This document shows, piece by piece, positions 1 to 55,197 of a stretch of DNA of 64,000 bases (the first letter of the stretch is position 1; every line of letters starts with the position of its first letter). This DNA is from Cinnamomum chago (taxonomy: Eukaryota > Streptophyta > Magnoliopsida > Laurales > Lauraceae). The stretch spans positions 43,431,501-43,495,500 of the forward strand of contig CP142458.1 in assembly GCA_038049695.1 (NCBI GenBank), written 5' to 3'. The translations under genes were made by a program, and so were the position numbers. The notes beneath the pieces are model-generated. The model saw nothing but the letters and a program-made list of their open reading frames with translations, had not been told where the DNA came from and did not search any database.

Positions 1-200
1 CGTTGGTGCGACTAAATAGATTCAGACCTATTCCGGATCGGTGTTCGGAAAGTCTTTGAACCGTGGACGTAGCCTTTTTGGTGAACCACGTTAAATCTGT
101 TGTCCGTGTGTGTGATTTGATCTTTTGTTGTTGAAATTGGACCTGATTTTAGAGATCACTGATTCACCCCCCCCCCTCTCAGTGATCGCGATATCCAACA
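1..200 (+). repeat. 3' tail of an unrelated Copia-type LTR
   Basis: The segment has a GTGGACGTAGCC...GAACCACG pairing block, a GT-rich stretch, a TTCACCCCCCCCC run and the ending ATATCCAACA. Plant Copia LTRs commonly end this way just before the tRNA-Met primer site. No primer site follows. Sequence of family A LTR starts at 201 instead. It is not the same family as A, whose own LTR end has the same layout but different sequence. The left part lies outside the window. Confidence 0.5.
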
Positions 201-679
201 GCATGTTCACTTTAGCATCATTTTAGTTTTCACACATGCATTGTTTTAGAAAATCTTGAAATCTGATTTTATACATGCATTGGTTTTTAGTCTTGTAGAA
301 TTAATCACTTATGCTTGTTTTGTTTCTAAACTTGGATGCATTGGTTTTAGAATCCAAACTCTTTTGAAAACCTAATTCTTTGTGCTTTACTTTTGAGAAA
401 TCAAAATGAGGATTTAGGTTTGTGCCTTGCATATATTCATCATTTTCAGAATCACTTTTGTATGCATTCAAATGTAAAAAGAGTTTTATCAAATCAAGCA
501 AGCCTTTGGTTTCAAAGTTTCAAATCAATTTAGGCTTCTTGTGTTTCATGTTTTTAAACATCTTAGATTGATTTAAAACATGTTTCCAAGCTTGGTTTAG
601 TGGCCCAAAAATCCCCTCCAAGAAAAACCTTCTAATGTGGAAAAAATAAGATTTTTGGTCCCAGGCAGTCGACCTGCAG

Positions 680-848
680 TGTGGTAGGTCGACCTGCCCA
701 GGGACCCAGGTCGACTTGCCACACTGCAGGTTGACTGGGCTCCTGAAGCTCCAACGGTCATTTTTCTGACCGTTGTGTAGCAGGTCGACCCCCACTGTTG
801 CTAGGTCGACCTGTCACTAGCCGTTGGGCAGTCTTTTAGTATAAAAAG
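680..848 (+). promoter_or_regulatory. A1 LTR core promoter: palindromes, MSA-like sites, TATA
   Basis: TATAAAAAG lies at 840-848. TCCAACGGTCA at 750-760, and TAGCCGTTGGG at 818-828 read on the other strand as CCCAACGGCTA, both fit the mitosis-specific activator consensus YCYAACGGYYA bound by plant MYB3R factors. A third core (TGACCGTTG, 767-775) pairs with the first to form a hairpin. GGTCGACC-type palindromes recur from 667 to 812. Sequence matches are seen; cell-cycle control is inferred. Confidence 0.6.
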
Positions 849-1144
849 TAGTTCTTTCCTTTGTCAAAGTTGGAGATTTTTAAGCCTTCTTTGAGGCATT
901 TGGAGACAAGACAAAGGGGATGAACTAAGAGAGACCAAAGAGTCTTTTGGAGAGCTAAAGCTTGGATTAATGAAGTGAAATCTCTAAGTAAGCTCTACCT
1001 CTCTTAATCATAAGTTATGTGCTTTGTTTAAATTATTGGTAAATGATTTTTAGCATGATAACTATGATGTGTTGAATCCATTCTTCTCTTAATCTTTGAT
1101 CTAATTAAGATTGGATTCCTCACCTTGGTTTCAATCCAAGTTGT

Positions 1145-1475
1145 TTTAAAAGCTTTCTTAATCATGCTTAGCCAAAGTCTTTGATTTCCTTTAAAGCATG
1201 ATTCCTTGTCTTGGTTGAAACCTAATTTGTTGTTTTCATTCATTTAAACTTTAGTTAAATCTTTTGGTTTTGAAAACAACATTGCACATGCATCACATGT
1301 TCTAAGTTAGTCATTTTCATACAACTTGTGAGTCTTTGATTTTTATGTCATTAACAAGTTGTTTCTCATACATGTGATTTGCATTAAACTTCAATCAATC
1401 TTTTATGAGCCTTAACTTTTGAATTGCTTTAAGCAATATATTAATTGAGCTTTGTTTTTAATTTGATTGAAGTTA
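1145..1475 (+). other. Hairpin cluster in the A1 LTR leader
   Basis: Perfect inverted arms: AATCATGCTT 1160-1169 with 1194-1203; GTTGTTTTC 1229-1237 with 1272-1280, whose loop holds TTAGTTAAATCTTTT; ATCACATGT 1292-1300 with 1370-1378, enclosing ACAACTTGT 1321-1329 with 1354-1362; AACTTCAATCAA 1387-1398 with 1463-1474. It lies downstream of the TATA box, so it should be transcribed. The cluster recurs in every A LTR. Confidence 0.7.
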
Positions 1476-1637
1476 TCACACACACACATCATGAGCATAC
1501 ATCTTTGCATTCATTTAGTGTTTGTGTGAGTTGATTTATACTTTCATATTAGCCTATTTAAGAGGCAATTTCTTTGAGCTTAATTTGTATCTCTTAGAGT
1601 GATCTTTTGTGAAGACACTTTCTTAGAGAAATCTTTA

Positions 1638-1790
1638 TTTGTAAAGGTTATTGCTTAGCCTAAGAAAAACATTGTGTAAAGGTTATTGCTTAGCCTTGAA
1701 AAGCATCTTGTAAAGGTTGTGGTTGAGCCTAGTGAAAACAACAGTGTAAGGGTTATTGCTTAGCCTAGTAAAAAGCATAAATAGTGGAAA
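1638..1790 (+). repeat. 34-bp tandem repeat in the LTR leader
   Basis: Four to five units built on GTAAAGGTTATTGCTTAGCC plus about 14 bp. Each unit could form a short RNA stem GGTTA/TAGCC (one G-U pair) around loop TTGCT. Copy number varies among A LTRs: about six in A2 (11935-12125, 20907-21095) and A4 (32605-32795), about five in A5, about three in A6. Confidence 0.8.
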
Positions 1791-2032
1791 TCCGGTGGGG
1801 TGATTGGATCACAAGCCGGTAGTGGACGTAGGCATTGAGGCCGAACCACTATAAACCTTTGTGTTGTGGTGCTTGCTTTTGTGGTGATTGTTTATTTTAG
1901 CTTCCGCATATTGTTTGATTAATCATCACATGTGACTAGTTTATCTTAAAGAATTAAAATTTGTCTAAATTGGTCATATTTGTAGCATACCCTATTCACC
2001 CCCCCTCTAGGGTTAGGATCCCAGGACTTTCA

Positions 2033-2050
2033 ATTGGTATCAGAGCCTCG
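2033..2050 (+). other. A1 primer-binding site
   Basis: ATTGGTATCAGAGCC begins right after the LTR. TGGTATCAGAGC is the standard complement of the 3' end of plant initiator-Met tRNA used by Copia elements. Confidence 0.85.
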
Positions 2051-2132
2051 TGCTCTATCTTATAGGATCAAGTGTTTGGAACTCTTGATTAGGTGTAAAA
2101 ACCTAGAGTCTAAACCCTAGTGTTGTGCTTTT

Positions 2133-3548
2133 ATGAAAATCATTAGAATGGACTCCACTATGCTAGACTTTGTAGATTCTTCTAGACCCCTCATTCTTCC
2201 TTCTATTGGAGATTCAAACCCTCAAATTAATGAATCTCAATGTGAGTTAAAAGAAGAAGAAAATGATTATGATGAAGATGATCTTCAACAAGCCTATAAT
2301 GAATTATATACATTATCTTCAAAGCTTGATAAGAGAAATAAAAGTTTAAAAGAAGAATCTAATAGACTAAATATAGAGCTAGTCTCTTCAAAAGATGAAC
2401 TTAGAGAGAAAGAAGAAGTAATAAAATGTCTAGACTCTAAGTTCATGATCTCTTTAAATAACCTATCTAACATTCAAGATGAACTAAATGAATTAAAGAT
2501 AGGAAATGATGATCTTAAAAAGGAAAATTTAAATCTAAGAGATCAATTAAAAAGGCAAGACAAAGACTTTAACAATTTAAAATCCAAGTTGATTAAAAGT
2601 AAGTTAAAAACCTTAGAACTTGGATCTAATGTTGTTAATGAACTTAAAATTGAATTAAAACTTGCCAATGAAGAGCTAAGTAATTATAAGGAAATTGAAA
2701 ATGATCTTTTAAAAGTTAAACATGAAAATTCAATCCTTATAACCAAAGTCACTCAACTTGAAGGATATAAACAAAAGTATGAGTGCAAGTTTACCCAAAG
2801 TGAAGAAAGACTTGAAAAATTATTTAAATTGGGTAAACCTCATGGAGATAAGACGGGTCTTGGATTTGATAGGAATATTTCACATGACCCTAAATTCACC
2901 AACACTTTTGTGAAAGGTGAGTCCTCATTCTCTAGCACTCTCTCTCAAATGTCCAAAACTAAATGTCATTATTGTGGTAAAGAAGGACATTTTAAATTTG
3001 AGTGCAAACTAAGAAGAAGAAGCCTTGTGTCCAAACCCATCTTTGAACTCAAAAATGTAGAATCAAAATCTATGAAGGGTAAGACACTAAAAATCAAGAA
3101 AGACTCCAAAAAGACTAAACAAGTTAAATCTATTAAAATGGAGTCTCCTAAGATAGATTCTAAGAAGTTTAAACAAGTTAAACCAAGTTTAAAAGAATCT
3201 ATGAACAAAAAGCTTCTCAACCTATCTCCCTTATATCAACCCATGAAAGAACTTTTGAATAAAGTAACAAAGTTAAATTTAAAATTCAAAAGTCAAATAA
3301 AGGGAGAATATAAGAAGAAGAGAAAAATGAACAAATCCCCAAAGAAACAAACTCACCAACATCAAAAGACTAATCACCAATCTAAGCTAAATTTAGTCAA
3401 ATCTAAATATCATGGTGATAAGTTTAAATTGAAAATTTATCAAGTCAAATCTCCTTTAGTTGGTGAAAATTCCAAACTAGACCTCAAAGTTCAACCCTCT
3501 CAAGACCTTAGGTGGATTCCTAAAGTTATCTACTTAGACAAACCTTAA
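2133..3548 (+). CDS. gag: A1 gag-like protein (coiled coil, zinc knuckle, basic tail)
   Basis: An open frame of 471 residues begins about 100 nt after the primer site. Order: short N-terminus (about 1-40), acidic stretch, long coiled coil (about 50-240) containing a 49-residue unit near SKFMISLNNL, a CCHC zinc knuckle starting at C281 (CHYCGKEGHFKFEC), a Lys/Ser-rich basic tail (300-455) and the end DLRWIPKVIYLDKP. The second methionine (MDST) is the start shared with A5 and may be the true one. The usual N-terminal Copia gag fold (UBN2-type) is not visible, so this matches only the C-terminal part of a Sirevirus-like Gag. The knuckle should bind RNA and the coil should self-associate. The frame is also retained in A5 and nearly so in A2, which suggests the protein mattered recently. 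A function beyond Gag is not known. Confidence 0.75.
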   Translation: MKIIRMDSTMLDFVDSSRPLILPSIGDSNPQINESQCELKEEENDYDEDDLQQAYNELYTLSSKLDKRNKSLKEESNRLNIELVSSKDELREKEEVIKCLDSKFMISLNNLSNIQDELNELKIGNDDLKKENLNLRDQLKRQDKDFNNLKSKLIKSKLKTLELGSNVVNELKIELKLANEELSNYKEIENDLLKVKHENSILITKVTQLEGYKQKYECKFTQSEERLEKLFKLGKPHGDKTGLGFDRNISHDPKFTNTFVKGESSFSSTLSQMSKTKCHYCGKEGHFKFECKLRRRSLVSKPIFELKNVESKSMKGKTLKIKKDSKKTKQVKSIKMESPKIDSKKFKQVKPSLKESMNKKLLNLSPLYQPMKELLNKVTKLNLKFKSQIKGEYKKKRKMNKSPKKQTHQHQKTNHQSKLNLVKSKYHGDKFKLKIYQVKSPLVGENSKLDLKVQPSQDLRWIPKVIYLDKP

Positions 3549-3555
3549 GGCCTTG

Positions 3556-5335
3556 AACCACCTTGACCAACCTAACCTTTTTAGTTAAATCCTTTTGTTG
3601 GTCATGTTGCATTTGCATTTTGTTCTTTCTTAGTTACATTTCTTATAATGCAATGTTTATTTGTGATCAATTGATTTTGTTTTCATGCACCATTCTAAGT
3701 TACATATCATGGTTTTTCAAAATCATTTGATTATAATTTCATCATGTTAGATTTGCTTTTTGCTCACATTTAGTTTTATGTTTTGCATTGCATTTCTACA
3801 TGATCAATTGATTGTGAGTTCAAAAGCTTTCATAGCTAGATTATTCATGATCAATTGCTGTTGAATCATTTGTGTAGATGTCTTGGTAAGAGTTTTTTTT
3901 AACAAATGATTTGAATCAATTCAAGTTTTTCCATGGTTTTCTAAGTTATACTTTTATATGGAAAATCATTGTTTTGAAAAATCAACTTGTATGTGTTTCA
4001 TTTAAGTTATATCTTTTAAAATACAATGTTGAAAATTGATCTTCAAAATCATTCTTTTTATGCTCATTGTTGGATTTTGTTTATCAAAATGATTTGAAGA
4101 GTGTTTGAATGGAAATGCTCTATAACATCATTAGTTATAATCATCTAAGTATGTTCCATGTTCTCATTTCCTTTCCTTATGGTTTCATTATCTTAGAATT
4201 GGAAATGTATGTTGTTTGCATCTTTGCTTATTTAGTTATTCTTTTTATATGCAAATGACAATTGGTTCCATGTATGGTTGTGATCTTAGTTTTATTTGTA
4301 GAAACCATACTAGAACTCAAATCCATCCTCTATGCCTTATAGTCATTTCTTTTTGGATGGTTATGATGTTAATTCATGTAGATTCTCTTGGTGTCAACCT
4401 TATACATGTTTCAACTTCATAAGTAGTGTTCTTGATCATATGAAACTCTTTGAAATCCATTCATTGTATTTCTATATGTTTGATGGATATCTTAGATGTT
4501 GAATTCATATGATTTTGACACTTTGAAAATTGCATGCTTTACCAAGTCATATCTTTTTGCATTGCAATTTCTCTTGTTCATCACTATACTCATTAGTCAT
4601 ATCTTTAAAAGTGATGAATATCCATTTATGATGCTTGATGGAATTTTGTGTTTGTCACATCCTTGCTCTTTATCATGTTGTCAAATTCAATTGGTTACAA
4701 TTGGTGTAATGTTCGATTGATTTGATTTCTTGTGAATGTGATAGAACTTGTGTACATTGGATTGAACTTGATAGTTATATATTTGTTCCATGTCACACAC
4801 CATTAGCATCATAATTTTCATGATTGCCTCCTCCCTTGCTCATATAGGTAAATCTCATGACCACCATGTTTATGTGTTCATAATATTGGTTGGTTAATTG
4901 TTGAGGTAGGCTTCATGTTTGAACTTCATTTCACTCATCTTGCACTTTAATAAGTCATATTTATTGATTGAATGAAATGATTTCACAACTTACATAGCAT
5001 ATGATTTTCATAGTTAAATTGATTGATGCTATGTTTAATAAACCCCATTGCATCATGGATAGCTCTATTTTGGATTTTTCCTAATAGTTATATTTTTAAA
5101 TCCATTTTAGAGTGATTGATTTAATAGTCCAATCCTTGAATCTCAATTGGTATTCTTTGTTTTTCTCCAATTGGTATCCATGATTGCTTTTCTCATTGAC
5201 CTTGCTTTCTTTTGGTAATTTGATCATATTGAGCCTTATAGTTAAATGAATCTAATCCTTTCCTTGAAGTTGACCCTCAATTGGTAAAACCATCTACTTC
5301 TTGAACCAAATAGTTATACCTTGTCAAAAGTTTGA
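3556..5335 (+). other. A1 hairpin array (non-coding)
   Basis: No coding potential. Inverted-repeat units follow one another with 6-13 bp arms and loops of about 20-40 nt, most loops holding a variant of TTAGTTATATCTTT. Checked arms: TGACCAA 3564/3598; CAATTGATTTTG 3668/3718; AATCATTTGT 3864/3902; TTTTCCAT 3927/3958; TCAACTTGTAT 3982/4021; TCTTCAAAATCATT 4040/4088; CATTTCC 4165/4201; TTTGCAT 4215/4249; GTATGGTT 4272/4303; CCATCC 4323/4355; AAATTGCA 4527/4563; TTCATCACT 4577/4610; TCATTTCA 4926/4973; ACATAGCAT 4992/5026; GGATTT 5072/5098. The arms differ between units; the loop motif recurs. Confidence 0.75.
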
Positions 5336-5349
5336 CATAAGAAGAGAAT

Positions 5350-5940
5350 GGATTGAGGGGGAGTGTAAACCTTCATAGGAAGTATTAGTTTTGATCAAAT
5401 TCACCCTTGGAATGCCTTTGAACCCTCAGAGATAACTTCCATACATGATACCCTGTTATGAATTTCATTTTCGATTTCTTTTGTTAACAGGTGCTACTAA
5501 AGGTATTTTCCTTGTTTCATGTGTGTAGGTACCTTTGCAATTTAATGTCAAAGGGGGAGAGAGCATTCAAGTTCTCAAAAGGGTGAAGAGAATGTCCAAG
5601 CTTCCTAAGGGGAGAGTTGTGTATGATCTTCTACAAGGGGAGAGAATGCATATCTTGCCAAAGGGAGAGAGAGGCATGGTCAAAGGGGGAGAGCAAATAG
5701 AAGAAAGAAAGCTTGGGAGCTAAAGAAGATGCTTGGCCATAGAGAGGAAGATGAAAAGAAAGCTTGAAGAATGATCAAGCTCCAACCATCAAGAAGATTG
5801 AAGAAAAGATCCCAAGAGCCCAATCTAAGAGGAGGAGCATCCAAGAAGATTTCAAGACTTGTCCAGCTTAGGGGGAGCTGAAGACTTTGTGTGTAATTTC
5901 AATGATGAGTAAGTTTCCATCAAATTGCAAAGGGGGAGAT
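5350..5940 (+). other. A1 multi-PPT zone and polypurine tract
   Basis: At least eight AAGGGGGAGAG-like purine tracts occur (near 5355, 5551, 5607, 5634, 5661, 5682, 5871). The last, AAAGGGGGAGAT at 5929-5940, abuts the 3' LTR and is the functional PPT by position. Multiple PPT copies before the 3' LTR are a published Sirevirus trait. CCATCAAATTGCAAA (5917-5931) pairs perfectly with the start of U3 (5957-5971), which puts the PPT in a loop. Confidence 0.8.
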
Positions 5941-7411
5941 TGTTAGGGATTTTGTATTTGCAATTTGATGGATGCATGTTCACTTTAGCATCATTTGAGT
6001 TTTCAAGCATGTGTTGTTTTAGAAAATCTTGAAATCTGATTTTATACATGCATTGGTTTTTAGTCTTGTAGAATTAATCACTTATGCTTGTTTTGTTTCT
6101 AAACTTGGATGCATTGGTTTTAGAATCCAAACTCTTTTGAAAACCTAATTCTTTGCGCTTTACTTTTGAGAAATCAAATTGAGGATTTAGGTTTGTGCCT
6201 TGCATATATTCATCATTTTCAGAATCACTTTTGTATGCATTCAAATGTAAAAAGAGTTTTATCAAATCAAGCAAGCCTTTGGTTTCAAAGTTTCAAATCA
6301 TTTTAGGCTTTTTGTGTTTCATGTTTTTAAACATCTTAGATTGATTTAAAACATGTTTCCAAGCTTGGTTTAGTGGCCCAAAAATCCCCTCCAAGAAAAA
6401 CCTTCTAATGTGGAAAAAATAGGATTTTTGGTCCCAGGCAGTCGACCTGCAGTGTCGTAGGTCGACCTGCCCAGGGACCCAGGTCGACCTGCCACACTGC
6501 AGGTTGACTGGGCTCCTAAAGCTCCAACGGTCATTTTTCTGACCGTTGTGTGTAGCAGGTCGACCTCCCTGTTGCTAGGTCGACCTGTGACTAGCCGTTG
6601 GGCAGTCTTTTAGTATAAAAAGTAGTTCTTTCCTTTGTCAAAGTTGGAGATTTTTAAGCCTTCTTTGAGGCATTTGGAGACAAGACAAAGGGGATGAACT
6701 AAGAGAGACCAAAGAGTCTTTTGGAGAGCTAAAGCTTGGATTAATGAAGTTAAATCTCTAAGTAAGCTCTACCTCTCTTAATCATAAGTTATGTGCTTTG
6801 TTTAAATTATTGGTAAATGATTTTTAGCATGATAACTATGATGTGTTGAATCCATTCTTCTCTTAATCTTTGATCTAATTAAGATTGGATTCTTCACCTT
6901 GGTTTCAATCCAAGTTGTTTTAAAAGCTTTCTTAATCATGCTTAGCCAAAGTCTTTGATTTCCTTTAAAGCATGATTCCTTGTCTTGGTTGAAACCTAAT
7001 TTGCTGTTTTCATTCATTTAAACTTTAGTTAAATCTTTTGGTTTTGAAAACAACATTGCACATGCATCACATGTTCTAAGTTAGTCATTTTCATACAACT
7101 TGTGAGTCTTTGATTTTTTTGTCATTAACAAGTTGTTTCTCATACATGTGATTTGCATTAAACTTCAATCAATCTTTTATGAGCCTTAACCTTTGAATTG
7201 CTTTAAGCAATATATTAATTGAGCTTTGTTTTTAATTTGATTGAAGTTATCACACACACACATCATGAGCATACATCTTTGCATTCATTTAGTGTTTGTG
7301 TGAGTTGATTTATACTTTCATATTAGCCTATTTAAGAGGCAATGTCTTTGAGCTTAATTTGTATCTCTTAGAGTGATCTTAGAGAAATCTTTATTTGTAA
7401 AGGTTATTGCT
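5941..7411 (+). repeat. A1 3' LTR, left part
   Basis: Starts TGTTAGGGATTTTG right after the PPT and matches the 5' LTR. MSA-like sites lie at 6523-6533 and 6592-6602, and TATA at 6614. It stops inside a 34-bp repeat unit at TTGCT (7407-7411), which is repeated at 21362-21366 beyond the inserted A2. Confidence 0.9.
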
Positions 7412-8158
7412 TGTTAGGGATTTTGTATTTGCAATTTGATGGATGCATTTTCACTTTAGCATCATTTGATTTACACACACTTGGATGGTTTTAGAAAACC
7501 TTGAAATCTGGTTTTATACATGCATTGCTTTTAAGATTTGTAAAAGTATTGTTTTATGCATGTTTTGTTTTTATGCTTGGATGCCTTGGTTTTAGAATTC
7601 AAACTCTTTTGAAAACCTAATTCTTTGTGCATTACTTTTGAGAAATCATATTGAGAATTTAGGTTTGTGCCTTGCATGCATTCATCATTTTCAGAATCAT
7701 CGTTGTATGCATTTTCATTTGAAAAGAGTTTTATCAAATCAAGCTAGCCTTTCGTTTTAAAGTTTCGAATCATTTTTGGCTTTGTGTGTTTCATTTTTTT
7801 TAAACATCTTAGATTGATTTTAAACATGTTTCCAAGCTTGGTTAAGTGGCCCAAAAATCCCCACAAAGAAACACCTTCAAATATGCAAAAGTTGGGATTT
7901 TTTGAACCAAGGGGGTGGTTCGGCAGTGTCGCCGGTCGACCGGCCCAGAGGTCCCGGTCGACCGGGAACACTGCAGGCCAGAAGGGCCCCTGGAGCCCCA
8001 ACGGTAATTTTTCTGACCGTTGTGTGATCCCGGTCGACCGAGACCTGTTTGCAGGTTGACCGAGGACTAGCCGTTGGACTGTTTTTCATTATAAAGTCCA
8101 TTCATTTTCCAACGTTCAAGAGGCTTGAACCATGAACTTTTGAGTCCATATTGGAGCC
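7412..8158 (+). repeat. A2 5' LTR, part 1
   Basis: U3 with CCGGTCGACCGG-type palindromes (7930-8045), a perfect MSA match on the minus strand (8068-8078, TCCAACGGCTA) and TATAAAG at 8090. Ends at GAGCC, the target duplication of solo LTR B2. Confidence 0.9.
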
Positions 8159-8570
8159 TGTCGCGACCCCGGACCGGGCCCGCGGAACTGATCCGGGATC
8201 GGGACCATTAGTGTATAATGATTGAAGGGTCTACATCCACAATATACAATTTATTTAATTTCCCACAGGTGTCCGCGGTGAGGATATCACAACAATCAAT
8301 GAATATTTCTTCTTGAGTGCGGAAGCATGTAGTAAATCAAATAGTCCAACTATCATTAGTTGAAGACCATAACAATAAGTATAATTACTGTATCAGAATG
8401 AGCAATGATATATATAGCAAGTTTCCCCAAGTTGTCAAAGTTAAACAAAATATCAGTTAGTTACATTCCCAACAATAGAGGCCAACAAAGGCCAATACTA
8501 CAAAAGAATAACCCAAAAGAATAGTTAATAAGTTCCCTCCAAAATGTTACGCCTCTTGGCAACCCGATGT

Positions 8571-8663
8571 CTACATGACATCGTCAGCACGCCACTCAAC
8601 TAGAGGTTGCAGCTCACCTACTGCCTCCTCCGGCTCCTCCTCAAGGAAACCGGCAACGGGACC
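8571..8663 (-). CDS. B2 LTR acidic short reading frame (predicted leader exon 2)
   Basis: Thirty codons follow a GGTACTCAG acceptor-like site and end EWRADDVM-stop, with a run of Glu (EEEPEEA) before. The same frame and stop occur in all B LTR copies and, with different nucleotides, in family C (EWQPDDVI-stop). Not recognised as a known protein. Confidence 0.4.
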   Translation of the reverse strand, partial: GPVAGFLEEEPEEAVGELQPLVEWRADDVM

Positions 8664-10582
8664 TGAGTACCAAAGCAAATGGGTCAGACACGACGGTCTG
8701 GCAAGAGAATGAAAAGATGCAACAATATATAATAGGTGAAATCTCTTGAAAAGCATAGAAATCTGTTTAAACAAGAACTCTCCTAAAAAAGGTAAATCAT
8801 TTGCTATAAAACAAGTAAAACAAGATAAAATATATGAGGTATCCAAGGAATCGGGAATAACAAGGTGGCAATCACATAAAGCTAAGTCCTCTGTCACTAA
8901 AGTGACAACAGTATCACGGGACGTTGATCTCAGTCACACAAGGTGAGGAGAAACAACGTATACATATATACAATATAATTATACGGGAACGGGACCACGG
9001 TAGCGAACCGGGTATCGGGACGGGACCACGGTAATAAACCGGGCATAGGGATCCAAACTGCAGCTGGCGGGACGGGAGAGGGATTTCGAAGGCGGTGGAT
9101 CAAACCGACAAGGTATCCAAGCTTAGTGATGCCGACTCATAGGTCAAAACCAATCGAGACATATGCAAGTAAATCAAGTACAGTAAATAAACGGGTAAAA
9201 CGGGGGTGCTCAAGGGCACGCTGTCATTTCATGTCGGGCAATACATTTCGAGACGAGTCAATGCTGCTATCATGCTTTCGGGAAAACAACTCATGACATG
9301 TAAATCTGGGAAATAGAGAAATATGATGAACTATACCAATTCGGGAAAGATAAATGTTTTAAGATCTATTTGAGTGAATAGGGGTCCCGTATGTCGATCA
9401 TAGATATGACTTGGTACTCCTTGAGTTTGAAGACATCCCGGGCTCCTTATGCACTTTTACAATTTTCAAAACTTAAAATGAGCTTATGGTTATAACTAGA
9501 TGTTATGATAGAAAATCAATACTATAAACGGTCCATCCTAAGTATGTTGTCAACCCGGAACCATCGAGCAACCTACTCAGTCACCGAAAGGAATAGAATT
9601 CGCGATACCCAAGGAAATAAACTTTGCATTTAGGTATGAAGAGGATATCGTGTCGCTCCATCCCGTTCAAGATTGAATAGATTGAACTTCGATGCATTCC
9701 GAACCAACCGTGAAGAGCATCGGCTCAAGACGCTCTCACATATGGTCAAGTGAGTCCAAGGAGGGTAGCCAAGGTCCATAAAAAAAATAAATCTCAAAAC
9801 CCACTGGACTCAAATTTTTGTACCCGCGCATCAACACAGTTCAGGCAGACCGCATCGCTCGAGCGAATCTAAGGGTTCGCTCGAGCGAACTCATCGGTCG
9901 AGCGGATATTTAAATGCGTTCGAGCGACCAAGTTACTGGAATTCCCGAATCCTTTTCTGGACAGGTCGCTCGAGCGAACTGTCATGGTCGCTCGAGCGAA
10001 CTGTCCAGAAATGGGTTCCGGACCAGTTCAGCTGTCCTCTTTCTCTTCCTTTTTACAACTCTCCTTTAGCCCTTCATATGCATCATAAGAGGGGTCTATT
10101 TCTCCCTTCAAACTACAACAAATCCTCCATCAAATCCATCATAATCTCTTCCATCACCCATGCATTCAATACAAGGAGAAAGGAGAAGGGAACCATTTCA
10201 CAATCTATATAAACATTTGCAATAAAACAAGGAGACATTCAATGCCATAAACCACTACTTCTCCAAGATTATAAATGTGTCATTAATACTTATCAAGAGC
10301 ATTCATTTCAAAACAAAGCAATAAATGCATATTAATGGGAAATGTCCAAAATCCATGAAAGCTTAGGAAAATCATTCATTCACTTGCCTTAAGTCTTCTA
10401 ACAATGGAATCAAGCTCTAACAATCTCCAAAGACAATGAATCCAAGCTACAAGGCAAAAACCCCAAATAAAACCCTAAAATGGTCAAACAATGAAATCAC
10501 AAAGAAATCTTCCAATAATGAGGGTGAAGCTTCTCTAAGGTCCAAGGAATACAATTCTAGAAGATAAAAGGGAAATACTTAC
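8664..10582 (-). other. B2 predicted LTR leader intron
   Basis: Donor CAA|GTAAGT at 10582 and acceptor TACTCAG near 8664. Equivalent sites occur in B1 (27949; 29780), B3 (14679; 12696), B4 (43135; 33546) and C (47195; 48588). The GC palindrome cassette lies inside. No transcript evidence is available. Confidence 0.45.
9845..9995 (-). repeat. TCGCTCGAGCGA palindrome cassette in B2
   Basis: Six copies of TCGCTCGAGCGA or close variants in otherwise AT-rich LTR sequence. The same word recurs in B1 (28541-28820), B4 (34750-34925) and C (47455-47690). B3 has an unrelated palindrome here. Confidence 0.8.
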
Positions 10583-10841
10583 TTGTAAGGTCCTCTAATG
10601 GACAAGGTAAGCTCAAAGGAAATCCTTGGAATGTGGGTTTTCTCCACAAAACTAACAAGAGGAAGCTCTCAATGAGGTGAAGAAGATGATGATTTCTAAT
10701 CTTTTCTTGGTGCAAGCTTGAGAGTGGATTGAGTGATGAAAGGCAAGAGCAAGAAGAAGATGAAGAAGAAAGCCCTAACTTTCTCTCTTGTGCTGGAAAA
10801 GAAGAATGGAGAAGAAGGGAAATGGCTTCCCTTGTTAACAA
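10583..10841 (-). CDS. B2 LTR exon-1-like open frame
   Basis: An ATG-started frame (from 10841) runs into the predicted donor at 10582. Ser-rich, then ...PTFQGFPLSLPCPLEDLT. Its phase at the donor is compatible with the acidic frame after the acceptor. The stretch next to the donor is also open in B4 (43136-43268). B1 and B3 do not keep an ATG-started frame here, so coding is uncertain. Confidence 0.3.
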
Positions 10842-11348
10842 TGAGTTGGGTTGGGTAGGTCCCGCAACTTAAGAAGCTAAATGGGCTGAAATCATCTCTC
10901 TCGGGTCCACGGATGAATTCGACGAAGAAGGAAGAAATGTTCGTCGAAATATCTAGTTTCCAAAAAGTGTATGTTTCGCGGGTTTCGAGAATATTAAGTT
11001 TTGGGTACAGATTTGGTGTGCAATGACTGTTTTGCCCTCAAGGCCAAGAATTCGGGTTTCGGGATCTCAAACGAAAACGGGATCAACATAAAAGTTGTCG
11101 GGATTAACAATGCCAATAAAACGAGATTAAAACCATAAATGTAAAAATCTCCGATAAATCCTCAATCATATGCAATGTCATGAAAAGGAACCCCCAAAGG
11201 GCCCTACTAACACAAAGCCAATCAAAATCCCCAAAACTATATCAGAAGCTATTCCAAACCCATCTTAACCAAAAATCACTAATCAAGCTTAGCACTAACA
11301 CGCAACTTAATTAGTACTAATCGGGCTCACTCGGGTCGGGGTCTTATA

Positions 11349-15766: not shown

Positions 15767-17178
15767 ATGAAAATCATTAGAATGGACTCCACTATGCTAG
15801 ACTTTGTAGATTCTTCTAGACCCCTCATTCTTCCTTCTATTGGAGATTCAAACCCTCAAATGAATGAATCTCAATATGAGTTAAAAGAAGAAGAAAATGA
15901 CTACGATGAAGATGATATTCAACAAGCCTATAATGAATTATATAAAGTATCCTTAAAGCTTGAGAAGAAGAACAAAAGTTTAAGAGAAGAATCTATGAAT
16001 CTTAACAAAGAGCTAGTCTCTTCTAAAGATGAACTTAGAGAGAAAGAAGAAGTAATAAATTGCGTTGAATCTAAGTTCATGATCTCTTTAAATAATCTAT
16101 CTAACATTCAAGATGAACTAAAAGAATTAAAGATGGATTATGATAATGTCAATAAGGAAAATTTAAATCTAAGAGATCAAAGAAAAAGGCAAGACAAAGA
16201 CTTTAGCAATTTAGAAGCCAAGTTGATTAAAAGTAAGTTAAAAACCAAAGAACTTGGATCTAATGTTGTTAATGAACTAAATCATGAATTAAAACTTGCC
16301 AATGAAGAGCTAAGCAAATATAAGGAAATTGAAAATGAACTTTCAAAAGTCAAAAATGAAAATTCAATCCTTATAACCAAAGTCACTCAACTTGAAGGGT
16401 ATAAACAAAAGTATGAGTGCAAGTTTACCCAAAGTGAAGAAAGACTTGAAAAATTATTTAAATTGGGTAAATCTCATGGAGATAGGACGGGTCTTGGATT
16501 TAATAGGAATATGTCACATGACCCTAAATTCACCAACACTTTTGTGAAAAGTGAGTCCTCTTTCTCTAGCACTCTTTCTCCAATGCCCAAAACTAAATGT
16601 CATTATTGTGGTAAAGTAGGACATTTCAAATTTGAGTGCAAACTAAGAAGAAGCCATGTGTCTAAACCCCTCCTTGAACCCAAAAAGGTAGAATCTAAAT
16701 CTATGAAGGGTAAGACACTAAAAATCAAGAAAGACTCCAAAAAGACTAAACAAGTTAAATCTATTAAAATGGAGTCTCCAAAGATAGATTCTAAAAAGGT
16801 TAAACAAGTCAAACCAAGTTTAAAAGAATCTATAAACAAAAAGCTTCTCAACCTATCTCCCTTATATAAACCCATGAAAGAACTTTTGAATAAAGTAACA
16901 AAGTTAAATTTAAAATTCAAAGTCAAGTAAAGGGAGAAAATAAGAAGAAAAGAAAAGTGAATCAATCCCCAAAGAAACAAACTCACCAACTTCAAAAGAC
17001 TAATCACCAATCTAAGCTAAATTTAGTCAAATCTAAATATCATGGTGATAAGTTTAAATTGAAAATTTATCAAGTCAAATCTCCTTTAGTTGGTGAGAAG
17101 TCCAAAATAGACCTCAAAGTTCAACCCTCCCAAGACCTTAGGTGGATTCCTAAAGTTATCTACTTAGACAAACCTTAA
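15767..17178 (+). pseudogene. gag: A2 gag-like gene (about one break)
   Basis: Co-linear with A1 gag: MDST start, coiled coil with the 49-residue unit, CCHC knuckle (CHYCGKVGHFKFEC), Lys-rich tail and the same DLRWIPKVIYLDKP ending. Close to A1 along its length, with changes scattered mostly in the coil. Interpreted as a recently degraded copy. Confidence 0.8.
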
Positions 17179-17184
17179 GGCCTT

Positions 17185-18960
17185 GAACCTCATTGACCAA
17201 CCTATTCTTTTTAAGTTAAATCACTTTGTTGGTCATGTTGCATTTGCATTTTGTTTCTCTCTAGTTTCATCTATTAAAATGCATTGTTTCTTTATGATCA
17301 ATTGATTTTGTTTTCATGCACCATTCTTGTTACATATCATGGTTTTCAAAATATTTTGATTATAATTTCATCATGTTTGATTTGCTTTTTGCACACATAT
17401 GTCTTGCATTGCATTTCTTTACATGATTAATTGATTGTGATTTTAAAAGCTTTCATAGCTAATTTATTCATGATCAATTGTTGTTGAATCATTTGTGTAG
17501 ATGTCATAGTAAGATTATTTGAACAAATGATTTGAATCAATTCAAGTTTTTTCATGGATTTCTAAGTTACACTTTTATATGGAAAATCATTGTTTTGAAA
17601 AATCAACTTGTATGTGTTTCATTTAAGTTATATCTTTTAAAATACAATGTTGAAAATTGATCTTCAAAATCATTCTTTTTATGCTCATTGTTGGATTTTG
17701 TTTATCAAAATGATTTGAAGATTGTTTGAATGGAAATGCTCTATAACATCATTAGTTATATTCATCTAAGCATGTTCCATGTTCTCATTTCCTTTCCTTT
17801 TGGTTTCATTATCTTAGAATTGGAAATGAATGTTGTTTGCATCTTTGCTAATTTAGTTATTCTTTTCTCTATGCAAATGACAATTGGTTCCATGTATGGT
17901 TGTGATCTTAGTTACATTTGTAGAAACCATATTAGAACCCAAATCCATCCTCTATGCCTTCTAGTCATTTCTTTTTGGATGGTTATGATGTTGATTCATG
18001 TAGATTCTCTTGGTGTCATCCTTATACATGTTTCAACTTCATAAGTAGTGATCTTAATCATATGAAACTCTTTGAAACCCATTTCTCATATTTCTATATG
18101 TTTGATGGATATTTTAGATGTTGAATTCATATGATTTTGACACTTTGGAAATTGCATGCTTTACCAAGTTATATCCTTTTCATTGCAATTTGCCTTGTTC
18201 ATCACTATGCTCTTTAGTCATATCTTTAAAAGTGATGAATATGCTTTTATGATGCTTGATGGGATGTTGTGTTTGTCACATTCTTGCTCTTAATCATGTT
18301 GTCAAATTCAATTGGTTTCTTTTGGTATAATTTATGATTGATTTGATTTCTTGTGATTGTGATAGACCTTGTCTACAATGGATTGAACTTGATAGTTATA
18401 TATCTGTTCCATGTCACACACCATTGGCATCATAATGTTCATGATTGCCGCCTCTCTTGCTCATATAGGTATATCTCATGACCACCATGTTTATGTGTTC
18501 ATAATATTGGGTGGTTATTAGTTGAGGTTGGCTTCATGATTGAATTTCATTTCACTCATTCTTGCACATTAATAGTCATATTTATTGTTTGAATGAAATG
18601 ATTTCAAAACTTACATAGCATATGATTTTCATAGTTAAATTATTTAATGCTATGTTTAGTAAACCCCATTGCATCATGGATAGCTCTAATTTGGATTTCT
18701 TAATAGTTATATTCTTTATAACTCCATTTTAGAGTGATTGATTTAATAGTCTTATCCTTAAATCTCAATTGGTACTCTTTGTTTTTCCAATTGGTATCCA
18801 TGATCGCTTTTCCCATTGACCTTGCTCTCTTTTGGTAATTTGATCATATGAGCCTTATAGTTAAACGAATCTAATCCTTTCCTTGAAGTTGACCCTCATT
18901 TGGTTAAACCATCTACTTCTTGAACCAAATAGTTATATCTTGTCAAAAGTTTGACAAAAG
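17185..18960 (+). other. A2 hairpin array
   Basis: Same order of inverted-repeat units as A1. GTATGGTT...AACCATA (17900-17930) encloses CTTAGTTACATTTG; ACATAGCAT/ATGCTATGT lies near 18613-18654; CCATCC/GGATGG near 17945-17980. Loops vary more freely than arms relative to A1. Confidence 0.75.
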
Positions 18961-22400: not shown

Positions 22401-25400
22401 TTGTTTTGCAGCATCATGCCTCCACGTAAGAGAACAGTGAATGGTATTCCTTCTGGCAGTAACAGTGATCACACCGGGCCAGTGGAAGAGGATATAGTTG
22501 AGAACAACCCACCAAACCAGTTTCAGGAAATGATGCAAGCCATGCTTGACCAGCAACGTCAAGCCAACGAAAACCAAGCCAGATTGCAAGAACAAATGCT
22601 CAGGAGGGAAGAAGACCATGCTAGAGAGATGGCAGAAATGCAGAGGCAATTGCTTGAGGTCTTGCAAAGAAGACCAGATCCGGTTCAACCTCAGCCAGCA
22701 ATCGTCATAAACCAAAGGCAACATGATCCCAATGCCTTGTTTGAGCGATTCAGGAAGAGAGCTCCGAAGGAATTCCTTGGGGAAGAGGACCCACTAGCTG
22801 CAGATGACTGGTTGGAACACACCGAGAACATCTTCGAGATCTTCCAGTGCACGGGAAGTGATAGAGTGAAGCTAGCATCATCCCTTTTAGTTGGCACAAC
22901 AGACAGATGGTGGAAAACAGTGAGAGAAGAATATAGGACCATGACTGATGCAGAAGTGTGGGCAAACTTCAAGAGGCAGTTTCATGACAAATATGTACCC
23001 GCCCACGTCAAGAAGCAAAAGGCTATAGAGTTTCAGCAGTTGGTGCAAGGGGGCATGACAGTCTTAGAATATCTCACCAAGTTCGAGAGATTGTCTAGAT
23101 ATGCCCCAGAGTTGGTAGATACGGTGGAGAAGAAAATCGCTAAATTCTTTGAGGGGCTTAATCCCTTCATTGAAAGAGATGCCACCGGAGTAGTACCACC
23201 TACTACTTTTGATGAAGCAGTGAAGAGGGCATACAAATTCGAGAACTTCCACAACAAGATCCTCAGAGTGCAAGGCAAGAGTCCAGCTCAGCAGCAGAAT
23301 TTCCAGCATCAGAGGAACCATCAGAATAAGAGGCAGAGGACAGGGCCAAATGTGCAGAATCCAGTGGTTTGCATCCACTGTGGGAAGAACCATGCTAGTG
23401 CTGAATGTCATACTATCACGGGAGCGTGCTTCAGGTGTGGTTCGATGGACCATAGGATGAGGGATTGCCCTAGGCCAAACAGACAGCAGCAGCAACAAAG
23501 GCCACAACGTCCACCACCACCACCACAGCATGAATTGGTTGTCCAAAACCAACCAAGGCCACTTCAGCAGCAAGCACCACAGCAACAACAGTTCAGACCG
23601 CAACAGCAGCCACAGCAGCAGGCCCGTCATCAGCAGGGACAGCAGCGTCCACCGCAGCAGAATAAGAATGCACCACATGGCAGGCCACAACAAGCTCAGA
23701 ACAGGCCACAGCAGCGAGGTCAAATCTACGGGGTCAATAGAGTGGATGCAGAGGCAGCGGGTAACGTAGTGGACGGTACACTTCTTGTTTGTGGGATTAA
23801 AGCTATGATTTTGTTTGACCCTGGCTCTACACATTCTTTCGTGTCCCATAAGTTTGCTAAGTTGATTGATATGCATGCTATAGAACTGGAGTTCATTTTG
23901 ACTGTGGCAACCCCAGGAGGTAAACAAGTTGTTTGTAGAACCTTTTACCCTAATTGCACAGTTCAGATAGGAGAAGTGGTTTTAACCGCAGATCTCATTT
24001 CTTTGGAGATGTTTGATTATGATGTCATCCTAGGGATGGATTGGCTGGCAGGGTACCATGCCACAATGAATTGTTTCCATAAGACCCTCACTTTCAAGTT
24101 GGTTGAGACACCAACAGGAGTGTCATTTCTGGGAGAGAGGAGGAATCCTCGTGCAGGGTTTGTTTCAGCGTTGAAGGCTGGCAGACTTTTGAGAAGTGGA
24201 TGTGAAGCTTATTTAGCGTTTATCGCTGAGGATAAACGGTCCCAAGGGGTGGAGGAGATCCCAATTGTTTGGAAATTCCCGGATGTTTTTCCAGAGGAGA
24301 TTCCAGGTTTGCCACCCATGAGAGAGATTGATTTCACTATCGAGTTGCTACTAGGGACTGCCCCGATATCTATTGCACCTTATAGAATGGCTCCATCGGA
24401 GTTGGGAGAGTTGAAGACTCAGTTGCAAGAATTGTTAGACAAAGGTTTTGTGAGACCGAGTGTTTCACCATGGGGAGCCCCAGTCTTGTTTGTTAAGAAG
24501 AAGGATGGTTCGATGAGAATGTGTATCGATTACAGAAGATTGAATCAAGTGACCATCAAGAACAAATACCCTTTGCCAAGGATAGATGAATTGTTTGATC
24601 AATTGCAAGGTGCATCATACTTTTCGAAGATTGATTTGAGATCTGGTTACCATCAGCTGAGAGTTAGAGAAGCAGATGTGTTGAAAATAGCCTTCCGGAC
24701 AAGATATGGCCACTGTGAGTTCCTAGTGATGCCATTTGGGTTGACTAATGCACCGGCAGTGTTCATGGCATTGATGAACAAGATATTTGCAGAGTATCTA
24801 GATCAGTTTGTTGTAGTGTTTATTGATGACATTTTGGTGTACTCCAAGACCAAGGAAGAGCATGAAGAGCATTTGAGGATTGCATTGCAACTCTTGAGAG
24901 AGAATCAGCTGTATGCAAAGCTTAACAAGTGTGAATTTTGGCTAGACCAAGTAGCATTTCTAGGACACATTATCTCAAGAGAAGGTTTGTCAGTGGATCC
25001 GTCCAAGATTAAAGCAGTCATCAGTTGGGAAAGACCGAAGAATGTGACAGAAATCAGAAGTTTTCTGGGATTGGCAGGTTATTATCGAAGGTTTGTGAAA
25101 GGTTTTTCGTCGATTGCGTCACCTTTGACGAAGTTGACAAGGAAAAATATACCATATGTGTGGACAGAGCAGTGTGAAGAGAGTTTCCAAGAGCTAAAGA
25201 AGAGATTGACTACAGCACCAGTCCTTACTTTGCCATCCGGGAGCAGCGGTTTCACCATTTTTACCGATGCTTCGAATGTTGGACTTGGTTGCGTGTTGAT
25301 GCAAGAAGGAAAAGTGATTGCTTATGGATCTCGACAGTTGAAAGATCACGAGAAGAACTATGCCACCCATGACCTTGAGTTAGCAGCTGTTGTTTTCGCG

Positions 25401-27184
25401 TTGAAAATGTGGAGACATTACCTCTATGGAGAGCAGTTCGAAGTCCACTCCGACCACCGCAGCTTACAGTACTTGTTTTCACAGAAGGTATTGAACATGA
25501 GGCAGAGGAGATGGATGGAATATATCAAGGACTATGATTTTCCAATCAAGTACCACCTGGGGAAGGCCAATGTGGTTGCAGATGCCTTGAGTAGGAAATC
25601 AGTAGGATTGGCGAACCTAAGTGGCACTTGTATTTTTGAGCAGTTTGAAGAGTTGAGTTTAGACTTACAGCCTCTAAGGAAGGGTGTTTCGTTAGCTAAC
25701 ATGACGGTGTCAGAACCTTCTTTCATTCAGAAGATCAAGGATAGTCGGTTGCAAGATCCAGAGTTGGGCAAAATTTCAGAGCATATAGCAGAACGTCCTG
25801 ACTTCCGTTTTGTTGATGGAGTTCTGTACTACCGTGACCGTTTGTGTGTACCTAACATTGAAGATTTGAGGAATGACATCATGACTGAAGCTCATAGCAC
25901 GAAGTACTCTATGCATCCAGGCGGCACAAAGATGTATCAGAATTTGAAGGGCAGATTTTGGTGGAACAACATGAAGAGAGAGATTGCAGCGTTTGTCTCC
26001 CGTTGTATGACCTGTCAGTTGATTAAAGCAGAGCATCAGAGACCTCCAGGGTTGTTACAGCCATTAGAGATCCCGGAATGGAAGTGGGAGCACATTACCA
26101 TGGACTTTATTTCGGGATTACCGAGGACTAGTAGAGGCAACGATGCAATTTGGGTCATTGTCGACCGTCTCACCAAGTCAGCGCATTTCCTTGCTATGAA
26201 GACAGGGAAGAAGATGCACATGCTACCTTTGGCAGAGTTGTTTGTCAGCGAGATCGTTAGTCGTCATGGGCAGCCAGTTTCTATCACTTCTGACCGAGAC
26301 AGCAGGTTTGTCTTGAGGTTCTGGAAGACATTGCATGAGTCTATGGGCACGAGACTACAGTTTAGCACGGCGTATCACCCTCAGACAGATGGCTAGTCAG
26401 AGAGGACGATTCAGACTCTTGAGGATATGCTACGTGCTTGTGTGTTAGATTTCAAGACACAATGGGATGAGACTCTACCGTTGTGTGAATTCGCTTACAA
26501 TAACAGTTACCACTCAAGTATTGGAATGGCTCCTTTTGAGGCTTTGTATGGCAGAAGATGTAGGACACCTGTTTGTTGGGAAGAAGTCGGTACTCGCAGT
26601 TTCCATGGACCGACGATTGTTAGTGAGACCAGCGACAAGATCAAGTTGATTCAAGAACGTCTGAAAGTGTCCCGGAGTAGACAGAAGAGCTATGCAGACT
26701 CCCACCGCGGGGATTTACAGTTCAAGGAAGGAGATAAGGTTTTCTTGAAAGTGTCACCTACAAGGGGAACATTGAGATTTGGTCAGAAGGGCAAGTTATC
26801 ACGGAGATACATTGGACCCTATGACATTGTGAGCAAGATTGGTGACGTGGCCTATAGATTGGCCTTACCACCTGAGTTATCTGGTGTACACAACGTCTTC
26901 CATGTGTCTATGTTGAAGAAATATGCCCCCGATCCGTCGCATGCACTCCGGCATGAGCCATTGGAGATCGGAGAGGATGCTACATATGTGGAGAAGCCCG
27001 TTGAGATCATCGATACAAAGGAACAAGAGTTGAGGACTTAGACTATTCAGTGGGTGAAGGTATTGTGGGAGAACCATGGACCGGAAGAGGCCACATGGGA
27101 ATTACGAGATCAAGTTCAGAAGAAATATCCACATCTTCTACCTGAGGTGAGTCTTATAGTTCATTTGGAGGACCAAATGCCCTA
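22401..27184 (+). pseudogene. gag-pol: B1 gag-pol polyprotein (about two breaks)
   Basis: Likely start MPPRKRTV (22416). Order by residue from 22401: Gag capsid-like domain (about 110-280, [15 protein letters not shown]...WANFKRQF), zinc knuckles ([13 protein letters not shown] and [14 protein letters not shown], about 325-355), a Gln/Pro-rich linker (about 360-450), aspartic protease ([11 protein letters not shown], about 471), reverse transcriptase ([19 protein letters not shown] about 695; FIDDILVYS about 807), RNase H (FTIFTDAS about 953), integrase with HHCC finger (HPGGTKMY, about 1172) and DDE core ([16 protein letters not shown]), and a C-terminal chromodomain-like segment (YVEKPVEIIDTKEQEL...WVKVLW). 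The double knuckle and chromodomain point to Tekay/Del chromoviruses. That clade is known to integrate into heterochromatin. Confidence 0.88.
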
Positions 27185-39690: not shown

Positions 39691-39696
39691 AAGGCC

Positions 39697-51130: not shown

Positions 51131-51403
51131 TAAGGTTAGTCTAAATGTGTACCAATGAAGATTCACCTAAGGTCTTGAAAAGGAAGTCCCTGAGAGTTCA
51201 CTTCAGGACTCACCAACTCTTGGAGATATAACTTGAAAAAGTCTTAGAGTGGTGCAATGATACAGTGGGGAAATTTCATTTTCAATCATAGTGGAAATCA
51301 TTACAAAGATGTGCAATAAAACACAACACTAGGGTTCTAATCTAGAAAGGATCAACTCCGGGTTGTTAAGCCCTAAAATGGAGTAACCTCGCTCTGAACC
51401 AAT
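51131..51403 (-). other. A6 gag/leader remnant
   Basis: About 270 bp resembling the ends of the A gag region (GCCTTAAGGT, CACCTAAGGTCTTG), then a leader with no useful ORF. A primer-like GCTCTGAACCAAT ends it. The subfamily keeps LTR and hairpins but essentially no protein. Confidence 0.6.
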
Positions 51404-55036: not shown

Positions 55037-55189
55037 TGGGGGGTGGCCCCCCAAGGGGCTTCAATCACCTTGTAGTGTTGGTTGCTGCAGAGTTTTCTTG
55101 AAGGAGCAGGGTTGTAGAGATTTCTCCGAGGATTTTTGAATGATTTTCTGGCGATTTTTCGGGATCCCTTTCCCTTGGAATGACCCTCC

Positions 55190-55197
55190 TATTTATA
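55190..55197 (-). promoter_or_regulatory. Tat LTR TATA box
   Basis: Minus strand reads CCTATAAATAGGAGG, a strong plant TATA context. Confidence 0.6.

Follow-up and report, generated by a model that had tools for sequence, protein, structure and literature searches.

An internal array of stem-loops with a shared loop motif in a non-autonomous, Sirevirus-type retrotransposon family of Cinnamomum chago

We analyzed a stretch of 64,000 nucleotides (nt) from Cinnamomum chago (GenBank assembly GCA_038049695.1, contig CP142458.1, positions 43,431,501 to 43,495,500 of the forward strand; hereafter the window), which looks like plant nuclear DNA with abundant nested long terminal repeat (LTR) elements. 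One of these, family A, is a non-autonomous LTR element with several copies in the window and most DNA hallmarks of a Sirevirus (Ty1/copia). In its copy A1, an array of hairpins runs from ~2580 to 5330 (2582-5330, plus strand), through the 3′ two thirds of gag and the non-coding half. The arms are unrelated between units, the loops are mostly 20 to 40 nt long, and many of the loops contain a motif, WAGTYAWATYT (core WAGTYA), on the sense strand only. Our results support selection on the pairing of the stems. It probably provides an RNA platform for docking, perhaps by an RNA-packaging protein, and we assign a probability of about 0.5 to a cis-acting RNA element whose loops are repeated nucleocapsid-type binding sites that together select the RNA for packaging.

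Excess and extent of the stems

An initial annotation of the window had described the non-coding half of A1 (3556-5335) as a string of 25-30 hairpins, with arms unrelated between units and a recurring loop motif, that resembles distributed packaging signals. The five inverted repeats that it quoted are all present there (TCTTCAAAATCATT/AATGATTTGAAGA with a one-base bulge), the stems do differ between units, and many of the loops share the motif; the selected stem-loops are, however, not confined to the non-coding half. Compared with dinucleotide-shuffled sequences, the control that the annotation had proposed, 3556-5335 contains an excess of perfect arms of at least 8 bases with loops up to 90 nt (14 vs 5.3; 0 of 200 shuffles reached this count). 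Thresholds of at least 9, 10, and 11 bases gave 4, 2, and 0 arms, counts reached by 12, 15, and 200 of the 200 shuffles. Perfect arms are also in excess in gag (12 vs 3.8) and in the LTR (22 vs 3.65). The span-limited fold energy of the sense strand was -363.9, against -279.5 (standard deviation [sd] 10.6) in shuffles, none of 40 being as low.

Strict stems with loops of 18-40 nt numbered 13 in the A1 non-coding half (7.4 in shuffles), 14 in that of A2 (6.9), 18 in that of A5 (7.4), and 8 in gag 2561-3548 (2.75), and in each of these four stretches 0 of 100 shuffles reached the observed count. Outside the array, we counted 2 strict stems in 5′ gag (vs 1.3) and 1 in the polypurine tract (PPT) zone (vs 2.5). 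Inverted 7-mers followed the same distribution: per 10,000 opportunities at loop sizes of 20-40 nt there were 8.6 in the A1 non-coding half, 7.8 in A2, and 11.3 in gag (vs ~1.8), compared with 1.6-1.9 at distances beyond 200 nt, 0.13 in a gypsy open reading frame (ORF), and 1.8 in the PPT zone. In the LTR, inverted 7-mers were in excess at 20-40 nt and at other distances. Based on these distributions of stems and 7-mers, the array starts within gag, at ~2580, and does not reach the PPT zone. The excess reported for the non-coding half is thus real, and it continues through gag 2561-3548.

The number of hairpins is a different matter. Folding placed 27 domains wholly inside 3556-5335, within the range of 25-30 given initially; however, the whole stretch has 29 domains and shuffles have 27.9, so hairpin number is no evidence for the array, and folding energy is. 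A wider strict scan found 17 non-overlapping stems in 3556-5335. What exceeds chance is the strength of pairing, the size of the loops, and the register of the motif with the stems, not the domain count.

The loop motif and its register with the stems

Between 2131 and 5340 in A1, the core WAGTYA occurs 26 times in sense orientation and never in antisense, with 5.8 expected from shuffles; sense and antisense counts were 25 and 1 in A2 and 24 and 4 in A5. The longer string AGTYAWAT occurs 14 times in A1 (0.7 in shuffles). Sixteen of the A1 cores are in the non-coding half, 10 of them inside loops, and the other 10 are in gag 2561-3548. As for the claim that most loops contain the motif, 9 of the 13 A1 non-coding stems with loops of 18-40 nt do, and the wider scan gives 9 of 17. 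Measured in 16 A1 loops, the G of the core lies 11-23 bases past the 5′ arm, and in 15 of these 16 the last A of the core lies 9-16 bases ahead of the 3′ arm; the full motif is therefore nearer the 3′ arm, in agreement with the initial description.

A position matrix built on A1 matched 10 sites in the gag segment 2561-3548 and another 17 across the non-coding half of A1 (~10 per kb in both). For A2, A5, A6b, and A7, the density of matches in non-coding sequence was 8-9 per kb. Sense matches were absent from 5′ gag, U3, all four PPT zones, and a gypsy ORF. Most other stretches were near the level of shuffled sequence; 8200-11340 had 4 matches (vs 1.5) and the A7 LTR had 5 (vs 0.7).

To compare motif and stem positions, we took the best stem around each motif and set the mean against the means for all circular shifts of the motif positions. 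In A1, the mean was 8.75 vs 6.09 (sd 0.39), and 0 of 3230 shifts reached it; the same held for the whole arrays of A2 (0/3215) and A5 (0/3403). It also held for the non-coding parts alone (A1 0/1712, A2 0/1701, A5 0/1726, A7 0/1010) and for the 3′ parts of gag alone (A1 0/908, A2 0/908, A5 0/1074). In the internal region of A6, 1 of 2238 shifts reached the observed value. A looser motif pattern gave 0 of 2700 shifts in sense orientation, compared with 939 of 2700 in the antisense control. The motif is thus not randomly placed relative to the stems, and the register is found in all five copies for which the layout had been proposed; however, the middle of A6 is diverged (three motif sites; 25/666 shifts when taken alone), and A7 has only the 3′ part.

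Selection on pairing

The non-coding halves of A1 and A5 differ by 7.2%, and their LTRs differ by 19.3%. Within the non-coding half, substitutions per site in arms were 0.033 (A2), 0.026 (A5), and 0.029 (A7), compared with 0.077, 0.086, and 0.101 outside the arms, an arm rate of 0.3-0.4 times the rest. When the arm mask was slid along the sequence, rates as low were obtained in 1, 0, and 0 of 1752 positions, respectively. Motif cores changed less than other loop sites in A2 (0.032 vs 0.075), A5 (0.039 vs 0.116), A7 (0.057 vs 0.070), and A6a (0.167 vs 0.239); A6b is an exception (0.098 vs 0.070).

Three hairpins were examined individually because changes on both sides of the stem had already been seen in them. 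In the hairpin at 4210-4260, four pairs have changed on both sides in A6 with pairing kept and the loop largely conserved (2 of 500 shuffles reach this), and in that at 4040-4100 two pairs have done so (25/500). The gag hairpin at 2684-2742 differs between A1 and A5 by two such changes (2686/2740 and 2692/2734), again with pairing kept (48/500); there are four amino-acid differences there (E/G, I/T, Y/F, and I/K). We also computed duplex energies for chimeric arms of six hairpins. Both chimeras were clearly weaker than the native duplexes in two of the six (designated h10 and h13), and in the remaining hairpins one chimera was equal or better, with off-register pairing.

Selection on the pairing of the array stems is supported because the non-coding arms evolve slowly, pairs have changed on both sides, the one-strand motif is in register with the stems, and the array is kept in a relative that lacks gag.

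The array in the gag-less copy A6

A6 (array at 49075-51250, minus strand) contains the primer binding site (PBS) region and a stretch that matches the very start of gag, followed by a junction near the 3′ end of gag. Its array is retained although it has no gag ORF, which points to a function in cis that is served by proteins supplied in trans. The middle of A6 (50705-49960) is strongly diverged from A1 yet rich in stems (summed score 80.6 vs 44.5; 0/200 shuffles). At least two of its stems (h10 and h13) have homologous hairpins in A1 but altered arms, and at least four strict stems in A6 (50368-49930) have no assignable A1 counterpart.

A6 (51391-49075, minus strand) seems to have one LTR (53305-51446) in common with A7, an arrangement like that of a tandem recombinant. 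At 49074, an insert that begins with TGTCGCGACCCCGG interrupts A6.

Candidate function and alternatives

Because the motif is on one strand, sits in loops, and is flanked by freely variable arms, we infer that RNA is the selected form; these features bear on the strand indirectly. Between a point within gag and the edge of the polypurine zone, the transcript would fold into successive small hairpins, with arms free to vary as long as they pair and with many loops displaying WAGTYAWATYT nearer the 3′ arm. These loops could be bound repeatedly by the nucleocapsid-type zinc-knuckle protein of a partner Sirevirus Gag, and many weak sites would jointly choose the RNA for virus-like particles, as proposed for the dispersed packaging signals of some single-stranded RNA (ssRNA) viruses. 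In Ty1, the affinity of Gag is similar for many RNAs, with Psi RNA favored under competition (PMC8396678), and under such conditions numerous weak sites could matter. The initial annotation had named the zinc-knuckle Gag of the element itself as a natural binder. Pfam identified zf-CCHC in the A1 Gag (E 0.00035, just above the cut-off), whereas the knuckle of the A5 Gag falls below the cut-off. A partner Gag is likely needed because the family A Gag has a knuckle and apparently no capsid part; judging from its sequence, the most that this Gag may do is serve a partner Gag as adaptor. Multi-site Gag binding for packaging appears to be the best explanation of the array. A bolder version, which we hold more tentatively, is that family A is a retrotransposon that is now largely a packaging code, its RNA being a distributed array of motif-bearing hairpins, 2.7 kb long and including coding sequence. 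The array would be retained even at changed Gag amino acids and in a derivative without gag, and it would let the element compete for particles made by autonomous elements.

Several results weigh against packaging by Gag or against selected RNA pairing in general. Pfam detected no capsid domain in the family A Gag at E 0.01 and no copia pol domain in any of the 22 window ORFs of at least 120 amino acids (aa). Packaging signals accepted for retroviruses and proposed for Ty1 are near the 5′ end (PMC8396678), unlike the array, which is internal and 3′. The excess of folding is equally large on both strands (antisense energy of 3556-5335, -325.0 vs -233.2, sd 10.2), and windowed folding z-scores are modest, at ~-1.1 in the A1 non-coding half, -0.8 in gag, and ~-0.9 over the whole window, with strands alike and other parts low too. 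Counts of G·U vs A·C in motif stems, 48:28 over four non-independent copies (16:7, 12:5, 9:9, and 11:7, with 9:9 in A5), are weak as a strand test. An unrelated repeat-rich region (55000-58500) also has an excess of inverted 7-mers at 20-40 nt (4.3 vs ~1).

The evolutionary evidence has weak points as well. Global counts of both-side changes in which a standard pair was kept were 4/5, 10/11, and 9/17 with A1, A2, and A5 as reference (cells, not events), against 3/14, 10/32, and 24/44 in slid controls; these counts are mixed, with no signal in the A5 set. Within gag, arms did not change significantly more slowly than the rest (0.047 vs 0.067 and 0.089 vs 0.117; 224 and 205 of 1378 slid masks), and the synonymous rate in gag arms showed no clear difference. 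The ten motif sites in gag occupy three reading frames, with 7 of 10 in one of them (V codon; assessed by eye), so constraint on the protein may play a part in gag. Conservation between copies is as high (93.8%) in the PPT zone, which is without an array; because this zone differs by only 6.2% between A1 and A5, exchange between copies or other constraints may be involved.

A selected RNA array could also have another job, as a set of sites for a host RNA-binding protein (in export, stability, or a translation block by which RNA becomes free for reverse transcription) or in dimerization. We consider this possible and clearly less probable than packaging. The structural evidence fits it equally, as does the retention of the array in A6, and the separate pools of translated and packaged BARE RNA (PMC3735527) mean that a switch element would be useful. 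On the other side, around twenty motif copies spread across 2.7 kb would seem excessive for a single switch or export element, and Rfam, which does not hold protein-binding motifs as such, gave no match in 171-7412.

An array that acts as DNA, with cruciforms or palindrome-like sites that serve a DNA-binding protein, recombination, or silencing, is improbable. The fold excess and the pair changes do not separate strands, and Sirevirus LTRs have arrays of short palindromes that are thought to be regulatory (PMC2829016). However, in those published palindromes the arms are constant and the spacers short, whereas the arms here are unrelated between units and so are not one protein's DNA site, and the motif is non-palindromic, inside loops, and on the transcribed sense strand only. 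A small-RNA pathway fed by the hairpins, as host target or viral decoy, is slightly less probable still: small RNAs are drawn to structured parts of maize Sireviruses (Bousios 2016, via PMC10760457), but the pairing required there is 21 nt, compared with the 8-15 bp of most array stems, structure there peaks in the LTRs, and a role in small RNAs would not select loop sequence. Least probable by our judgment is an array without function, in which AT-rich vocabulary or a decayed duplication series mimics hairpins: the region is AT-rich with recurrent words, shuffles alone yield 7.4 of 13 stems and as many fold domains, and direct 7-mer repeats are locally in excess in A1 (9.6 at 40-60 nt), but this is contradicted by the motif register, which lies above all circular shifts, and by the slow arms with their both-side pair changes, and it also sits poorly with inverted words that peak mainly at 20-40 nt and with the outcome of Tandem Repeats Finder (TRF), which found no tandem array in 2100-5940 and only six rows of 19-29 bases.

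Comparison with known elements and viruses

Little is known about how RNA is chosen for the particles of plant LTR retrotransposons, and non-autonomous elements need everything in cis. Elements made up of LTRs, a partial Gag, and a hairpin array show which RNA features selection protects, and one hairpin with one loop motif is a ready probe for the binding protein. A distributed packaging code, if true, would link retrotransposons to concepts from ssRNA viruses; we know of no LTR retrotransposon in which a system of dispersed packaging signals was described earlier. The interiors of large retrotransposon derivatives (LARDs) reportedly have conserved RNA structure, and BARE2, the gag-less parasite of BARE, retains pol.

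Family A resembles published Sireviruses in its multiple AGGGGGAG octamers, AT/TG attachment site, inverted repeat at the terminal PPT, CA/ATTGG/TATCAGAGC junction, and poly-C integrase signal, and possibly in the palindromic boxes of its LTRs (PMC2829016), and by sequence it appears to have most of the Sirevirus DNA hallmarks listed there. Inverted repeats in Sireviruses are described at the PPT and at the gag/pol boundary, with palindromes in the LTRs and near env; the accessible part of the source describes no array of hairpins with a loop motif for gag or the linker (PMC2829016), and family A differs further in being without pol. Terminal-repeat retrotransposons with a GAG domain (TR-GAGs) are defined by a Gag domain, or Gag plus protease, only. 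A1, A2, and A5, with a single zinc-knuckle, Gag-type ORF each in which Pfam found no capsid-type Gag domain, may be akin to TR-GAGs, and A6, with its long non-coding interior, is like LARDs; no hairpin array with a loop motif is described in the available portion of PMC6022998.

BARE2 RNA lacks gag, is packaged by others, and retains dimerization and packaging signals (PMC3735527). A6 is likewise without its own Gag and presumably packaged by that of another element; nothing in the text available presents the BARE2 signals as an array (PMC3735527). Retand, a gypsy element, also has a long repeat-bearing interior 3′ of its genes, composed of tandem repeats of 8-100 bp between pol and the 3′ LTR (PMC11963269), whereas the units of family A share only the loop motif and the pairing. 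TRF found no head-to-tail repeats of the Retand type in 2100-5940.

The closest parallels come from ssRNA viruses. The satellite tobacco necrosis virus (STNV) genome may have up to ~30 stem-loops with a preferred loop motif, and RNAs with several of them assemble better (PMC3593212); in enterovirus E, 29 sites with a common loop motif have been proposed (PMC7793301). Family A has what characterizes such dispersed signals, namely many stem-loops along the RNA, variable stems, and a common short loop motif. The viral systems have support from SELEX (systematic evolution of ligands by exponential enrichment), assembly, or cryo-electron microscopy and involve no reverse transcription (PMC3593212, PMC7793301), whereas the function proposed for family A derives from sequence. 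Searches of an open-licence collection, read as titles and abstract openings, yielded no such array in an LTR retrotransposon, and an internal hairpin array in an element of this kind, Sirevirus-type and TR-GAG-like, is apparently undescribed in the literature that could be searched.

Family A copies and their coding content

The gag ORF of A1 (2133-3548, plus strand) encodes 471 aa with one CCHC knuckle, and its 3′ part bears the array. Between A1 and A5, gag has a dN/dS (nonsynonymous to synonymous substitution rates) of 0.47 and a dS of 0.22. Compared with A1, the A5 Gag has an additional coiled-coil-like stretch of ~58 aa (40636-40809, minus strand) that is similar to the neighboring stretch and may, from its sequence, be an internal duplication. 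A search of PDB by sequence gave no match, and no relatives were found in the viral and genome contigs searched, collections that do not include plant genomes. Among the 22 ORFs, five have domains that we read as Ty3/gypsy and three are the family A Gag. Those read as Ty3/gypsy, with reverse transcriptase, RNase H, and integrase, are located at 22416-27041 (which also has protease and gag), 44515-46116, and 60131-63502, all on the minus strand.

The non-coding half of A1 (3549-5340, plus strand) was the reference for identity values. Those of A2 (17179-18959, plus strand), A5 (39696-37891, minus strand), and A7 (54998-53909, minus strand) are 90-92% identical to it, and that of A6 is in two pieces on the minus strand, 51129-50708 (80%) and 49950-49075 (90-92%). 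The array of A2 (16191-18959) comprises the 3′ part of gag (16191-17178) and the non-coding half, as does that of A5 (37891-40850; gag part 40850-39697), and A7, with its 3′ part of the array (53909-54998), is 98.1% identical to A6 over 913 bases. Family A moved recently, since the LTRs of A5 are 99.6% identical.

The PPT zone of A1 (5341-5940, plus strand; 3′ LTR from 5941) contains five AGGGGGAG octamers, no matrix match, and no stem excess, the stem and matrix counts having been taken over 5341-5943. All 23 matches to the octamer in the window are inside four family A PPT zones (5, 6, 6, and 6). In each of the four, the terminal octamer leads into AT/TG (ATTG), and AGGGGGAGATTG occurs once per zone. 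The terminal PPT of A1 is flanked by an inverted repeat with 13-base arms (5918-5930/5958-5970), identified by eye in A1 only. The Sirevirus-type junction of 5′ LTR and PBS, CA/ATTGG/TATCAGAGC (2031-2046, plus strand, 16 bases), is exact in A1, A2, and A5 and one base short in A6. The poly-C integrase signal has seven matches with at most one mismatch, three of them ~20 bases ahead of PBS junctions. The palindromic box GGTCGACC occurs in 23 copies, 1-4 per family A LTR stretch (eight stretches), many without the outer C/G; this is fewer than the 3-14 boxes with a CGG-CCG core per 3′ LTR in published Sireviruses (PMC2829016).

Individual hairpins of A1

All hairpins given here are on the plus strand. 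Within gag, the motif is present in the loops of ATCCAAGTT/AACTTGGAT (2582-2625), AGACTCCA/TGGAGTCT (3101-3146), ATAGATTCT/AGAATCTAT (3153-3202), and ACTTTTGAAT/ATTCAAAAGT (3251-3293); the loop of GTTTACCCAA/TTGGGTAAAC (2789-2838) is without the strict motif, and the hairpin at 2684-2742 has the arms TTATAAGGA/TCCTTATAA. A hairpin with the motif in its loop spans the gag stop codon (3500-3556), and its stem is retained in the gag-less A6.

The non-coding half as first delimited (3556-5335, plus strand) holds the 17 strict stems, 27 fold domains, and 16 motif cores reported above. Loops with the motif belong to GACCAAC/GTTGGTC (3559-3609), a long hairpin with a 19-position stem (3661-3736), TGTTGTTTGCAT/ATGCAAATGACA (4210-4260), TTCATCACT/AGTGATGAA (4575-4620), TCATTTCA/TGAAATGA (4926-4980), and ACATAGCAT/ATGCTATGT (4992-5034), in the last of which A6 and A7 have T-A in place of one A-T pair. 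The strict motif is absent in A1 from AATCATTTGT/ACAAATGATT (3861-3914; AAATCATTTGAT/ATCAAATGATTT in A6), from the bulged hairpin TCTTCAAAATCATT/AATGATTTGAAGA (4040-4100), and from GTATGGTT/AACCATAC (4272-4310).

LTR hairpins and insertion boundaries

R-U5 of A1 (1074-1362) and the other LTR copies contain hairpins of their own. We considered the LTR R-U5 as part of the same array and rejected it, as its register was null (280 of 1117 shifts). Three R-U5 loops have CTTTGAT in common, in sense orientation only (3 vs 0.33 expected in A1; 3, 3, and 1 in other copies), and the R-U5 hairpin at 1228-1281 bears the motif of the internal array in its loop. Compared with three other LTR copies, two-sided changes in R-U5 kept a standard pair in 7/11, 5/9, and 13/18 cells. 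In the 5′ LTR of A1, a near-perfect hairpin of 31 positions with GTCGACC palindromes (666-737) lies in the region of Sirevirus-type repeated boxes.

A2 was seemingly inserted near the end of the A1 3′ LTR, as the A2 LTR begins with TGTTAGGG at the break in A1 (7412). The sequence TGTCGCGACCCCGG occurs six times in the window, at 8159, 12187, and 33032 and, on the minus strand, at 22258, 30280, and 49074, and it is apparently the end of another inserted repeat family.

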